Source of the DNA: a virus
Direction: 5' to 3' (one strand)
DNA length: 28,995 nucleotides
IMG/VR virus record: IMGVR_UViG_3300032213_000172
Location: 1 to 28,995 of that record
Positions 720 through 5,733 of this stretch are shown in pieces. The notes under the pieces are model-generated. The model saw only the letters and a list, made by a program, of their open reading frames with translations. It was not told where the DNA came from and ran no database searches. Numbering within the stretch: position 1 is the stretch's first letter; each line of letters begins with the position of its first letter. A program made the position numbers and the translations under genes.

Positions 720-929
720 ATGAAACAAACAGCAGTAGAATGGTTAATGGATGAAATTGCAGAAAAATATAATTTTAGATTTGCAATTTATTATGGTCAA
801 GAAATTCAACAAGCCAAAGAAATGGAGAAAGAGCAAATTAAAAATGCTTGGTTAAATTCATTAACTAAAGGTGATTTTAATTCAGCAGATGAATACTATA
901 ATTATTTATATAAAAACTCAGAACAATGA
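720..929 (+). CDS. MKxTAVEWL-family small protein, copy 2 (69 aa)
   Basis: The product begins MKQTAVEWLMDEIAEKYN, has AKEMEKEQIKNAW in the middle and ends DEYYNYLYKNSEQ, matching copy 1 at all three blocks. A longer in-frame reading from 630 is possible but would overlap copy 1 by 89 bases; the ATG at 720 lies two bases after that stop and gives the family N-terminus, so I chose it. The stop overlaps the start of the DnaA-like gene (ATGA, 926-929). Function unknown. Confidence 0.8.
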   Translation: MKQTAVEWLMDEIAEKYNFRFAIYYGQEIQQAKEMEKEQIKNAWLNSLTKGDFNSADEYYNYLYKNSEQ

Positions 930-1333
930 ACGAAGTAAAATTTTTAAAAGAACAGATCACAAAGTATCAACTAGCTACTAACTCTAGAAATAGAGCCTAT
1001 GTCTATAAGAGATACTATGTAATGTACAGGCTGAACAAATGTAAGCTCACACTTAGTGAAATAGGTAGGCTTATGAATAGACATCATGCTACTGTTATAC
1101 ATGGCATCAAAATGCACAGGAGATGGACCAGGATGCAGGATAAAGTATATCTTCATGAGATAGAGCCATTAGTTGAGGCTGCTGTTAATGATAATTATGA
1201 GGATAAGTACAAAGTTTCGGCAATAGAGCATTTCAATTACATCAATGTAAGGATTCAAATGCCTTGGGATTATGATAAGGTCAATAAATTTAAAGATTAT
1301 ATGACAGCTAAAGAACTAGCTGAAATAATTTAA
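926..1333 (+). CDS. DnaA domain IV-like DNA-binding protein, putative replication initiator
   Basis: A 135-aa protein whose central part (residues about 20-75) resembles the C-terminal DNA-binding domain of DnaA. LTLSEIGRLMNRHHATVIHG (41-60) lines up with the E. coli segment containing the GRDHTTVLHA signature. Arg52, His54, Thr56 and His59 are kept, while the usual Asp and first Thr are His53 and Ala55. There is no AAA+ ATPase domain, so it cannot act as a full DnaA. It may bind CACA-type boxes and recruit host DnaA or the phage helicase. It is the last gene before a terminator, and the next 250 bp carry eight CACA iterons, which fits an initiator beside its origin. The domain call is fairly secure; the role is inferred. 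Confidence 0.75.
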   Translation: MNEVKFLKEQITKYQLATNSRNRAYVYKRYYVMYRLNKCKLTLSEIGRLMNRHHATVIHGIKMHRRWTRMQDKVYLHEIEPLVEAAVNDNYEDKYKVSAIEHFNYINVRIQMPWDYDKVNKFKDYMTAKELAEII

Positions 1334-1352
1334 GCCCTTAGGGGCTTTTTTT
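1332..1352 (+). terminator. Rho-independent terminator after the DnaA-like gene
   Basis: AAGCCC (1332-1337) pairs with GGGCTT (1342-1347) across a TTAG loop, followed directly by a run of T to 1352. The stem begins inside the stop codon. It closes the early operon that begins near 26825 and runs through the circle junction. Confidence 0.8.
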
Positions 1353-1605
1353 GTGCAATGTTAAAATGGTCCTTACAACTTTGCACAAAAGATTGCACAT
1401 AAAATAACATTGATTATCAGTATTTTAGATTGATTTGTGCAAAGTTTTGAGAAAAAGCCCCTACCCTATATATACTATAAGACCAGGATGAAAAAAAAAA
1501 GTAAAAAAAAAGACCAACTTTGCACAAAGCCTTGGTACTGCTAACTTTTGGGTGTGCAAAGTCTGTGCAAAGTTGTATGTTGATAAAAAAAGATTGCACA
1601 CTTTG
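1350..1605. other. Putative replication origin: CACA iterons plus A-tracts
   Basis: Eight copies of a TTGCACA-type box lie in about 250 gene-free bases. Plus orientation: ACTTTGCACAAA at 1378-1389 and 1517-1528, and GATTGCACA with its core at 1392-1399 and 1593-1600. Minus orientation: 1352-1357, TTTGTGCAAAGT at 1434-1445, and TGTGCAAAGT at 1553-1562 and 1564-1573, the last two spaced 11 bp, about one helical turn. The box CTTTGCACA fits the DnaA box TTATNCACA at most positions and keeps the CACA end. Between the groups are two A-tracts (1491-1500, 1503-1511). The gene just upstream encodes a DnaA domain IV-like protein and the next one downstream a primase-helicase. Origin function is inferred. 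Confidence 0.65.
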
Positions 1606-1634
1606 TAAAGTATTAATAATTATTATTACATTTG
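1602..1634 (+). promoter_or_regulatory. Host-type promoter before leader RNA and primase-helicase gene
   Basis: TTTG at 1602-1605 and TACATTTG at 1627-1634 fit the Bacteroidota consensus (TTTG, then about 19-21 nt, then TANNTTTG), here with 21 nt between them. The predicted transcript starts near 1641 and would begin with the structured leader at 1643-1729. The last CACA iteron (1593-1600) abuts the upstream element, so a protein bound there could repress transcription. Confidence 0.6.
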
Positions 1635-1642
1635 TAAAAATT

Positions 1643-1729
1643 GAACAGCCAAATGACAAAGACTTTAATCTTAGAGAGTATAAATCCCCCTATCAACTTG
1701 GCTGTTCGCTTAGGGGGACTCTCTTTTTT
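1643..1729 (+). ncRNA. Structured leader RNA: terminator hairpin with possible pseudoknot
   Basis: AGAGAGT (1673-1679) and CCCCCTA (1686-1692) pair with TAGGGGG (1711-1717) and ACTCTCT (1718-1724). This gives a 14-bp stem with one six-base bulge, followed by T's to 1729, which looks like an intrinsic terminator. The hairpin loop contains TTGGCTGTTC (1698-1707), a perfect complement of GAACAGCCAA (1643-1652) at the predicted 5' end. The two helices interleave, so they form a pseudoknot or compete. The primase-helicase start codon is only 10 bases further on. It may be an attenuator controlling that gene or a short independent RNA. The pairings are seen; the function is inferred. Confidence 0.6.
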
Positions 1730-1738
1730 ATATAAATT

Positions 1739-4078
1739 ATGAATCTAATAGATGTAGCTAATGAATTAATAGCAGAGGGATTGAATCCTCTACCACTTTG
1801 GAACAGCAAAGCTCCAATGCTTGAGGCAGGTCATAATTTTTTATATGAAACTATTACAGATGTAGATAGTAGATTCTTAAAAGCTGAGAAAATAGGGATA
1901 GCCTGTGGATTAGTTAGTGAATTTTACTGCATTGACTTTGACTGCCATAATGGTGAGCCTATTAAAGATACATTTGATGACTTTATTAGTGTGCCATCCA
2001 TTAAGATGCTGATTAAAGATGGGATGCTATCCTCTTATACTACAGCAGGAGGTGGCTATCATGTTTATTTTAGATCAAAAGAGAAGTTTAATGGTAGAGT
2101 ATTTGCTAAATATCCTACAGGAGCTACAATGGTAGAGATGAGAGGCAATGGACAGTACTGTGCCTGCTATCCATCTAGTGGATATAGTCATATCGGTGGT
2201 GAGGAGTACATAAAGCTGAGCTATTTTGATGATGATATTAATAATGTCTTTGATTTAATCACATCTTATAATCAGCATCACACTATTAGTCTACCTCACA
2301 AAGATACATCTGATAGAAAGTGGGCAGAGACCTGGAAAGATACTACTCCTGATGGTAAATATAACCTTGAGAATGGAGATGAGGCTAAGGAGCTGCTTAA
2401 GGGGATAGGATGGCAGTTCTGCAATAAGAGAAAGGATGGCTCAGAGTATTGGACTAGACCTAACAAAGATATAAAAGATGGATTCTCAGCTACTTTTGGC
2501 TTTCAAAATAATATGTTCTATATATTTAGTGAAGATGGAGGAGCTATAAAGCCATTTGAATCTAAGCAATCTTATTCACCATTTAATATCTATACTTTAG
2601 TCAAGCATAATGGAGATTGGAATGCTGCTAAAGAGGCATTAAAAAAGAAATTTAAGATGGTAGATGATGACTTTTGGTCCACTACTCAGAATGGAGCTTA
2701 CAATCTTAACAACTTTAAGTTCAAAACATTCCTAGATAACAATGATTTCTTTAAGCATTCACCTGAAAAAAATGGCACATTTCAAATGATTAAGAAAGAG
2801 GGTATATTTTTAAATGAGGTATATGAGAAAGATGTTAAAGACTTTGTATTAGATTACATCACATCTAATGATAAGCCTGAGGGAGTTTATAACCTGATGA
2901 GTGGCAATCTTAAGTTCTTTAAGAGAGAATTTCTAGGGATATTGACTAGTAAGAATGTAAGTCTATTGAAAGATGACAAAGATAGTGCATATCTATTCTA
3001 TACTAATTGCATAGTAAAGGTATCTAAGGATAAAAAAGAGGTACTATCTTATGCTGATATGGATCTATCTATTTGGAGAGACCAGGTCATCAATAGAGAC
3101 TTTAAGAAAACAGATCACCACAAGTCAGAATTTAGAACTTTCATTTGGAACATAGCAGGTAAAGATAAAAGTAAGTACAAAGCATTCCAAACTGTAATCG
3201 GATACCTCCTGCATAGCTATAAGGATAGGAGTAATAACAAAGCTATCATCTTTAATGATGAGGCTATCTCTGATGTGCCTAATGGTAGAAGTGGAAAGGG
3301 CTTATTTTGGAATGCAATGGGACATCTTAAGAAAGTGCAGAGCTTAGATGGTAAGTTGTTTGACTTTCAAAATAAATTCCCTTACCAAAATGTCTCTACT
3401 GATTGTCAGATATTAGTATTTGATGATGTTAAAAAGAAATTTAACTTTGAGAGCTTATTTAGTGTGATTACTGAGGGTATTACTATTGAATACAAAGGTA
3501 AGGATTCTATTAAACTAGATGTAACTAACAGCCCTAAGATTATCATTACTACCAACTATACTATCTCAGGCAATGGTGCATCTTTCAATGCTAGAAAGTA
3601 TGAGGTAGAGATGGCTAAGACATTCAATGATAAGTTCACTCCTGTAGATCTATTTGGTCATGAGCTGTTCGTTGATTGGGATGATGACCAATGGGCAGCC
3701 TTTGACAATTACTGCCAGGAATGCATACAAATATATCTTAATGTAGGTCTTATAGAGATGCCTACTATCAATCTAAATTTTAGAAAGATATTAGATGAGA
3801 TTAGCAGTGAGATGTACTATTTCTTTGAGGATCTAAAAGAGGATACTTACTACTCAGTAAAAGAACAGTTATACGATTCATTCTGCAATGCATTCCCTGA
3901 TAAAAAGAACTATATAACACAGAACAGCATCACAATTAACTTTAAAAAGTACTGCGAATACAAAGGATATATCTGCTCTACCAATAGGAATGGAGGCAGT
4001 ACTAGATTGTCATTTGTACAGGAGGTAAAAGAGCTAGATATATGGGATGAATTAACAATTAAAGCTATGAATATATGA
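1739..4078 (+). CDS. Primase-polymerase / SF3-type helicase fusion (779 aa)
   Basis: The N-terminal part is a primase-polymerase (Prim-Pol, AEP superfamily): catalytic DxD at Asp66/Asp68 (FYCIDFDCHN), the GGGYH segment with His108, and the MVEMRGNGQY strand with Arg135. The C-terminal part is a D5/SF3-like helicase: Walker A NGRSGKG near residue 515, Walker B ILVFDD near 560, and motif C IIITTN near 602. Such fusions prime and unwind DNA at phage origins. The gene starts 10 bases after the structured leader RNA, beside the putative origin. Its stop overlaps the nuclease gene by four bases. The residues between about 180 and 460 show no motif I recognise. Family is clear; exact substrate preference is not. 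Confidence 0.9.
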   Translation: MNLIDVANELIAEGLNPLPLWNSKAPMLEAGHNFLYETITDVDSRFLKAEKIGIACGLVSEFYCIDFDCHNGEPIKDTFDDFISVPSIKMLIKDGMLSSYTTAGGGYHVYFRSKEKFNGRVFAKYPTGATMVEMRGNGQYCACYPSSGYSHIGGEEYIKLSYFDDDINNVFDLITSYNQHHTISLPHKDTSDRKWAETWKDTTPDGKYNLENGDEAKELLKGIGWQFCNKRKDGSEYWTRPNKDIKDGFSATFGFQNNMFYIFSEDGGAIKPFESKQSYSPFNIYTLVKHNGDWNAAKEALKKKFKMVDDDFWSTTQNGAYNLNNFKFKTFLDNNDFFKHSPEKNGTFQMIKKEGIFLNEVYEKDVKDFVLDYITSNDKPEGVYNLMSGNLKFFKREFLGILTSKNVSLLKDDKDSAYLFYTNCIVKVSKDKKEVLSYADMDLSIWRDQVINRDFKKTDHHKSEFRTFIWNIAGKDKSKYKAFQTVIGYLLHSYKDRSNNKAIIFNDEAISDVPNGRSGKGLFWNAMGHLKKVQSLDGKLFDFQNKFPYQNVSTDCQILVFDDVKKKFNFESLFSVITEGITIEYKGKDSIKLDVTNSPKIIITTNYTISGNGASFNARKYEVEMAKTFNDKFTPVDLFGHELFVDWDDDQWAAFDNYCQECIQIYLNVGLIEMPTINLNFRKILDEISSEMYYFFEDLKEDTYYSVKEQLYDSFCNAFPDKKNYITQNSITINFKKYCEYKGYICSTNRNGGSTRLSFVQEVKELDIWDELTIKAMNI

Positions 4079-4539
4079 CCAAAGAAAACAAGCAACTACT
4101 CAAAGCCCTAGAGATTAACTACCTCACACTTAAGCACCCTACCATGCCCTACATTACGGCATCAGATTGGAATGATAACTCTGCCAATGCTCTCACTAAA
4201 TGTATCATTCACTTTCTAACCTATTCAGGCTATCAAGCTGAAAGGATTAATACAATGGGTGTATATAGAGAGGGTAAGAAGATACAGGTAGGTGAGAATA
4301 GTAGACAGCTCAAAGGCACATGGACTCCTAGCACTTCCACTAAAGGCTCAGCTGATATATCTGCCACCATTAGAGGTAGATCAGTGAAGATTGAGGTGAA
4401 GTATGGTAAGGATAGGCAGTCAGAAGTGCAGAAGAGGTATCAGCAAAGCATAGAGCAGGCAGGGGGTACATACTTTATTGCAAGAAATTTTGATGAATTT
4501 ATGATATTTTATTGTAAATTCCTTGCAGATATAAAATAA
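4075..4539 (+). CDS. VRR-NUC / PD-(D/E)XK nuclease-like protein
   Basis: A 154-aa protein with a nuclease core near its C-terminus: KGSADI with Asp94, then VKIEVKYGKDRQSEVQ with Glu107 and Lys109 as the E-x-K pair and Gln119 on the following helix. The order D...ExK...Q matches the VRR-NUC branch of the PD-(D/E)XK superfamily, which includes structure-specific nucleases and Holliday junction resolvases. The start overlaps the helicase stop (ATGA), and it ends just before a promoter. It probably processes branched replication or recombination intermediates, by analogy. Confidence 0.8.
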   Translation: MTKENKQLLKALEINYLTLKHPTMPYITASDWNDNSANALTKCIIHFLTYSGYQAERINTMGVYREGKKIQVGENSRQLKGTWTPSTSTKGSADISATIRGRSVKIEVKYGKDRQSEVQKRYQQSIEQAGGTYFIARNFDEFMIFYCKFLADIK

Positions 4540-4552
4540 TTGATTATCTTTG
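4523..4552 (+). promoter_or_regulatory. Host-type promoter before the recombination operon
   Basis: TTG (4523-4525) and TATCTTTG (4545-4552) are separated by 19 nt, an exact fit to the Bacteroidota -33/-7 pattern. The sequence is very similar to the promoter at 26825-26854: both read TTGCAG, then TATAAAA, then end in TATCTTTG at the same distance. The predicted start is near 4559, giving a leader of about 18 nt ending tacacATG. Confidence 0.75.
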
Positions 4553-4576
4553 TTGAAATAATTTAAATTTATACAC

Positions 4577-5116
4577 ATGGAAACAAAAACAAAAGCTGTA
4601 TCACCAGCACCTGTACTAACTCTGCATCAGAAGCTCCACAAAGCTAAGCAGTCAATCGGCAAAGTAGCTAAGAATGCTACCAATCCCCACTTTAAAAAGT
4701 CATACTCTGACATTAATGCCATCACTGAGGCAGTAGAGCCTATCTTATTAGAGAATGGTCTACTATTATTACAGCCTATTCAAGGCAATTCAGTATGTAC
4801 TCAAATTATCTGTATAGATTCTAATGAGTCTATAGAGTCATGTATGGAATTACCTGCAGGACTTAATCCTCAGCAAGTAGGATCTGCAGTTACTTACTAT
4901 CGTAGATATACTTTGAGCAGTATCTTATGCCTACAGTCAGTAGATGATGATGCAAATCTAGCAAGTGTACCTGTTAAGGCAGTTAAGCCTGGACTATCTA
5001 AGGAAAGATTTGAGGAGGCACTTGTATCTATTCAAGATGGTAAGTTTACTATCCCTAAGCTAAGAGAGACCTTTGAGCTTACAGATTTACAACTTAAAGC
5101 ACTTATGTTACTATGA
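4577..5116 (+). CDS. erf: ERF-family single-strand annealing protein
   Basis: The 179-aa product carries the ERF hallmarks in order: NPHFKKSYSDINAI (about 37-50), EPILLENGLLLLQP (about 54-67), and the signature NPQQVGSAVTYYRRYTLSSI followed by the acidic DDDAN. ERF proteins anneal complementary single strands in phage recombination. The next gene, overlapping by four bases (ATGA at 5113), encodes a PD-(D/E)XK exonuclease, so the two make a classic exonuclease-annealase pair. It is transcribed from the promoter at 4523-4552. Confidence 0.9.
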   Translation: METKTKAVSPAPVLTLHQKLHKAKQSIGKVAKNATNPHFKKSYSDINAITEAVEPILLENGLLLLQPIQGNSVCTQIICIDSNESIESCMELPAGLNPQQVGSAVTYYRRYTLSSILCLQSVDDDANLASVPVKAVKPGLSKERFEEALVSIQDGKFTIPKLRETFELTDLQLKALMLL

Positions 5117-5733
5117 AATGGCATCCATCTTCACTCGGAAAATTAATGATAGAATCTCGGACTAAGTCTGAGGTGCTATCTGAAACTACTAAGACCTACA
5201 TTAGAGCTGTAGCTAAACAAGATTTCTACGGTTACAATGTAGATCTGAATAATAAGTACATTAATAAGGGAAATCTACAGGAGAATGATTCTATAGCTCT
5301 ATTCAACTCAGTAATGTTCAGCAACTACTCTAAGAATACTGAGAGACTAAACAACGAATGGCTCACAGGAGAGGCTGATATAGTACTAGATGATCAAATA
5401 GTAGACATTAAGACATCATGGTCCTTAGAAACGTTCCCTGCTACCTCAGAAGAGGGTATAAATAAACTGTACGAATGGCAGCTAAGAGCTTACATGATGC
5501 TATATGATAAGAACTATGCTAGTCTAGTCTATTGTATGGTCTCTACACACCCATCTCTACTCAATGAGTGGGAGAACTTATCACTCCATCAGGTAGATCA
5601 CATAGCTCCTGAGAAGAGAATCACTACTCTACTCTTTACTAGAGACCTGGAGCTTGAGGAGGAGATTAAAGTACGGTTGCATCACTGCACTGAGTACTAT
5701 GTTAAGTATATTAATCAATTAAATAATAAATAA
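5113..5733 (+). CDS. PD-(D/E)XK exonuclease, recombination partner of ERF
   Basis: A 206-aa protein with the nuclease pattern: KGNLQE (Glu57), GEADIVLDDQIVDIKT with Asp89 and the D98-x-K100 pair, and WQLRAYMMLY with Gln123 on the following helix. This arrangement is seen in YqaJ/Cas4/RecB-type phage exonucleases, which resect double-stranded ends to load an annealing protein. The place directly after erf supports that role. The metal-binding acid before Lys is Asp rather than the more usual Glu, which the family tolerates. The exact subfamily cannot be told by eye. Confidence 0.8.
   Translation: MKWHPSSLGKLMIESRTKSEVLSETTKTYIRAVAKQDFYGYNVDLNNKYINKGNLQENDSIALFNSVMFSNYSKNTERLNNEWLTGEADIVLDDQIVDIKTSWSLETFPATSEEGINKLYEWQLRAYMMLYDKNYASLVYCMVSTHPSLLNEWENLSLHQVDHIAPEKRITTLLFTRDLELEEEIKVRLHHCTEYYVKYINQLNNK

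Follow-up and report, generated by a model that had tools for sequence, protein, structure and literature searches.

Putative iteron origin inherited with its primase-helicase beside a constant DnaA domain IV gene in a Bacteroidota-type phage

Positions 1352-1600 of the window (the whole stretch of viral DNA that was analysed, 28,995 nt) very probably represent an iteron origin that is read by a self-loading primase-helicase and swapped together with it as a cassette, with a gene for a DnaA domain IV-only protein (dnaA-IV) as constant neighbour. The phage is assigned to the Bacteroidota type by its promoter type and by distant protein matches in Bacteroidota phages. The original prediction of a minimal phage origin at this site is well supported by layout and co-inheritance as far as the origin is concerned, but the role of initiator, which it gave to the DnaA-IV protein, is unsupported. 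The features of the region are listed below.

926..1333, + strand: dnaA-IV, DnaA domain IV-only protein of 135 aa (Bac_DnaA_C profile and predicted fold)
1334..1356, + strand: terminator-like hairpin with T-run 3' of dnaA-IV, ending in TTTTTTTGTGC; left edge of the exchanged block (sequence and comparison of type A and B loci)
1352..1600, no strand: iteron array of eight AA[CG][TA]TTGCACA repeats, orientations - + + - / + - - +, centre at about 1476 (motif count, symmetry test, relatives)
1410..1419, no strand: TTGATTATCA, putative bend or IHF-like element (read in the sequence; recurs in several other origin types)
1457..1511, no strand: conserved centre CCCCTACCCTATATATA of the putative origin with A-tracts after it, candidate melting region (similar centre elsewhere)
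1602..1634, + strand: putative Bacteroidota-type promoter TTTG-N21-TACATTTG of the primase-helicase, abutting the last box (known promoter consensus)
1636..1738, + strand: primase-helicase leader RNA containing a terminator-like hairpin and a possible pseudoknot (sequence; no Rfam match at gathering score)
1739..4078, + strand: Prim-Pol / D5-SF3-type primase-helicase of 779 aa, proposed initiator (Prim-Pol profile and PDB fold match)
3857..4021, + strand: C-terminal winged helix of the primase-helicase, residues 707-761, proposed iteron reader (AlphaFold2, pLDDT mostly 81-90 up to residue 760)

Layout of the iteron array and the putative origin

Eight TTGCACA boxes follow dnaA-IV in both orientations, as had been noticed before, at 1352(-), 1381(+), 1393(+), 1436(-), 1520(+), 1553(-), 1564(-) and 1594(+). 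The whole window holds 14 such sites compared to 4.43 expected from shuffling, and the Poisson probability of eight within about 250 bp is about 1e-16. Among 80 relatives the density of TTGCACA 3' of the dnaA-IV stop is 269 times that of the rest of the same loci. The cluster of repeats is hence real, but its earlier description as DnaA-box-like holds in part only: the full repeat unit is longer than the box, AA[CG][TA]TTGCACA, and none of the eight is an exact match to the DnaA-box consensus TTWTNCACA. The six exact matches to this consensus in the window are scattered and occur at about chance level.

The array is mirror-symmetric. With 1476 as the centre, the two halves of the array differ by 1-10 bp in iteron position (p 0.004-0.02 versus random placement); for the type E iterons of more distant relatives (see below) mirror symmetry alone is not significant. 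A centre like CCCCTATAC..CTATG is found in most other iteron types. The GC skew stays positive in almost every kilobase of the window and does not switch near 1350-1605, which says little about an origin because almost all genes lie on one strand. An Rfam search with the region and nine relatives returned no family at gathering score, and blastn of 1300-5300 against phage records gave no match. The assignment as a replication origin is well supported because symmetric iterons, a conserved centre and an A/T tract are combined with a primase-helicase that lies directly downstream and is inherited along with them.

Alternatively, the repeats might not form an origin but serve as operators that control the promoter of the primase-helicase, with the primase-helicase itself or another regulator as the binding protein. 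The last box indeed abuts the -33 element of this promoter. However, the array covers 250 bp about an A/T-rich centre in mirror-image order, and the layout is found in similar form where the repeat sequences are unrelated, which makes a mere operator function improbable.

Repeats are inherited with the primase-helicase and independently of DnaA-IV

A scan with the DnaA-IV protein yielded 80 viral relatives with 75-94% identity. Together with the window these 81 loci fall into two discrete forms, 28 of type A and 53 of type B. Wherever a type A locus covers the region completely, the eight boxes recur with almost unchanged positions and orientations, apart from one locus that keeps seven of them. 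Type B is devoid of TTGCACA boxes and exhibits AGCACAA repeats and an inverted repeat instead. In all loci long enough, type A is found with a primase-helicase like that of the window (97-100% identical in full-length copies) and type B with another one, without exception. The type B primase-helicase is 43% identical to the one in the window, in the C-terminal half only, and carries a BT4734-like N-terminal domain in place of Prim-Pol.

In contrast, the DnaA-IV proteins do not separate the two types. Identity between A and B reaches 100%, and one A/B pair is identical even in DNA. On the DnaA-IV tree the origin type requires 17 changes by parsimony, at least seven of which are forced by supported branches. 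In pairwise comparison the exchanged block begins 23-24 nt past the stop codon of dnaA-IV and extends to where the primase-helicase gene ends; outside of it, A and B are roughly 86-95% identical. DnaA-IV thereby lies outside the exchanged block, and its best explanation is a constant backbone neighbour of the origin that does not specify the repeats.

These comparisons also bear on whether the boxes are bound by the DnaA protein of the host, as in plasmids and phages that use host initiation. TTGCACA ends with the CACA half of DnaA boxes. Yet the region lacks any exact TTWTNCACA, phages with an about 90% identical backbone use non-DnaA repeats, and the phage has its own primase-helicase. Recognition by host DnaA is thus extremely unlikely.

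The shared inheritance of iterons and primase-helicase could be due to linkage of neighbours alone, which is countered in part by recombinants in the leader. In the window, and likewise in L004, L013 and L108, the 5' strand of the leader can pair with the hairpin loop (GAACAGCCAA/TTGGCTGTTC), and the paired strands change together in relatives, e.g. to AATCACCCT/AGGGTGATT in L108, whereby covariation was judged by eye. L013, L082 and L090 combine type A iterons and a type A primase-helicase with a type B-like leader, indicating recombination inside the cassette. In L013, A iterons and A primase-helicase are thus matched although the leader between them is B-like. Some phages with type C iterons have an extra gene between origin and primase-helicase (L117 3063-4010, 315 aa; apparently also L116, L118 and L119).

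Wider relatives show the same association. Where the primase-helicase is about 80% identical to that of the window, the TTGCACA array is kept even though DnaA-IV is only about 31-35% identical. More distant loci have other repeats around a similar centre, namely CCGAAATATTT, AAACTTTAC, AGTACACAT, TTACGTCA, AGGTACTT, AGTACAA, TGACAA or TGACGC, and CCCTTGCA. About nine repeat kinds exist in the wider relatives, and the kind tracks the clade of the primase-helicase, not that of DnaA-IV. In 91 distinct DnaA-IV/primase-helicase pairs we observed essentially one iteron kind per primase-helicase cluster, with motif counting misassigning a few weak cases (L223, L296), and a single DnaA-IV cluster can be associated with up to five or more kinds. 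Primase-helicase cluster 4 has two related kinds, C and D, and type J (L275) comes with a VapE-like helicase.

All this bears directly on the original proposal that DnaA-IV is the initiator, binds the TTGCACA boxes and competes with or recruits host DnaA. The protein has the domain IV fold with a conserved R21 and the recognition-helix residues H54 and V57, five boxes are one base off TTWTNCACA, and the gene remains beside the origin in most relatives. However, the very same DnaA-IV proteins adjoin origins with and without the boxes, and box identity follows the primase-helicase; type A iterons adjoin two DnaA-IV clusters that are about 31% identical. Moreover, the kinds C, D, G, H, I and J lie beside DnaA-IV genes with repeats that contain no CACA and have no DnaA-box character, and several 30-35 kb records with E-kind iterons (AGTACACAT), which may be incomplete, have no detectable Bac_DnaA_C. 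DnaA-IV is therefore very improbable as the reader of the boxes.

The primase-helicase as proposed initiator

The Prim-Pol profile (PF09250) matches the primase-helicase with 29.6 bits (cut-off 22.8). A PDB sequence search with the primase-helicase profile found nothing, and the best PDB match of the structure model is the SaPI5 primase-helicase 7ola/7om0 (E 6.7e-12). In a structure comparison, 7ola was aligned over 335 residues with Z 20.7 and an rmsd of 3.9 A, and 7om0 with Z 20.0. The model contains a predicted D5/SF3 helicase fold with P-loop, of which N515-G516 and S518-G519-K520 are invariant in 29 relatives. Model confidence is low at the N-terminus. The predicted C-terminal winged helix consists of helices 707-718 and 728-742 and strands 744-751 and 754-761, and one of the 7om0 alignments reaches residue 755.

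The alpha protein of phage P4, with its ori, is alike by description: a single protein has primase, helicase and origin-binding activities, the last through a winged helix at the C-terminus, and P4 differs in repeat and organisation. The winged-helix origin-binding domain of alpha has been reported (PMC10516667). In SaPI Rep helicases the C-terminal domain recognises the iterons, and binding apparently involves two hexamers; for Cch2, this domain by itself suffices for binding to the origin (PMC7581432). SaPI5 PriRep1 and SaPI Rep, as well as SCCmec Cch2, resemble the system described here in the predicted fold of the primase-helicase, the C-terminal DNA-binding domain and a short-repeat origin beside the gene. 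They differ in that the origin is here upstream of the gene and not downstream, in that about nine repeat kinds occur in a single phage group, and in that a sequence match to PDB chains is not detectable. Since the fold is SaPI5-like and SaPI Rep reads iterons by its C-terminal domain, the winged helix is the inferred reader of the repeats. Residues of the recognition helix may be linked to the iteron sequence, for which the evidence is suggestive: in L145 a change from I to N in this helix coincides with an iteron change, but I-type relatives also hold the variant repeat.

We propose that in this phage the eight repeats would serve as binding sites for the winged helix at the C-terminus of the downstream primase-helicase, such that two hexamers load on the mirror-image halves of the array. 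The A/T-rich centre (about 1457-1511) would be melted by the hexamers, and unwinding and priming may then run both ways, in line with what has been proposed for SaPI Rep. The origin would form one cassette with the promoter and the primase-helicase, which is traded among related phages for cassettes with differing repeats.

Origin-plus-initiator modules are already known, swapped ones included: in PLE satellites the origin iterons and the DNA-binding domain of the initiator covary and are swapped as modules (PMC8263062). The exchange in PLE is confined to the RepA_N domain of an initiator that is not a primase-helicase, whereas here the whole gene moves with the origin. The novelty lies in the phage group, in the range of repeat kinds and in DnaA-IV as a constant neighbour.

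Possible roles of the DnaA-IV protein

The reading of the 926-1333 product as a DnaA domain IV-only protein without ATPase was confirmed by the profile search. Bac_DnaA_C (Pfam) matches residues 10-62 with 41.2 bits (cut-off 31.5, E 1.7e-10), and no further Pfam domain is above cut-off in the 135 aa, leaving the protein without AAA+ ATPase. AlphaFold2 predicts residues 1-88 with confidence (pLDDT about 77-96 per block). In Foldseek the PDB entries that match the model best are 3pvp and 1j1v, both DNA-binding domains of DnaA (probability 1.00/0.99; TM to target 0.71/0.67), at E-values of only 0.06/0.34. The protein thus resembles DnaA in its domain IV and differs from it by the missing AAA+ and by boxes that deviate from the consensus and whose kind does not go with the protein.

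An alignment of 19 sequences shows no variation at R21 or at H54, A55, V57 and I58 of the recognition helix; hence DnaA-IV probably still binds DNA. As a candidate site for DnaA-IV we considered TTTTTTTGTGC, which lies at 1346-1356 after the dnaA-IV terminator and is kept between DnaA-IV clades. TTTTTTGTGC occurs 161 times near dnaA-IV stops compared to 73 times elsewhere in 2.38 Mb, many of the 73 being iterons. TTTTTTTGTGC is localised to dnaA-IV terminators yet missing beside some DnaA-IV clades, and is therefore not claimed as a binding site.

A search with DnaA-IV among phages had Olleya phage Harreka_1 as sole match (37% over 61 residues), and a scan of genome contigs gave 12 distant matches and no close prophage. 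At 509-929 of the window, two adjacent small genes start with a similar MK(K/Q)TAVEWL, apparently a tandem duplication.

DnaA-IV is probably a DNA-binding regulator, a role favoured by the precedent of GafY, a DnaA domain IV homologue that acts with IHF to switch on promoters of gene transfer agents (PMC9632790, PMC11150451). More specifically, it may be a transcription regulator of the GafY/HdaB type that is unrelated to origin recognition, which would be compatible with DnaA-IV as constant neighbour. Both cases concern a DnaA domain IV homologue in a phage-derived element, and the 135-aa protein has domain IV without other DnaA domains. On the other hand, GafY/HdaB is an alphaproteobacterial transcription activator with GafZ as partner, and the cited literature reports no neighbourhood to a replication origin. 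No binding site of DnaA-IV was identified here, and the comparison covers the shared domain IV. We consider a regulator of this type a serious candidate, if somewhat short of an even chance.

Competition of DnaA-IV with host DnaA is possible. It is also conceivable, though rather unlikely, that DnaA-IV is a conserved cofactor of interchangeable origins that serves several unrelated primase-helicases and repeat sets, e.g. through contact with the conserved centre or with the helicase on the origin, or through a block of host oriC. If so, the backbone would supply a universal adaptor and the cassettes the specificity.

For the preferred explanation, an origin read by its own primase-helicase, the present case cautions that DnaA-box-like repeats next to a DnaA-like gene may have another reader. 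In this one group of phages, about nine origin specificities are tied to primase-helicases, and cassettes have been exchanged naturally in a backbone that is otherwise almost the same. The swaps make the rule that links winged-helix residues to iteron sequence directly testable. The reason for origin swaps is testable as well, e.g. escape from satellites or from origin-directed nucleases as in PLE/ICP1.
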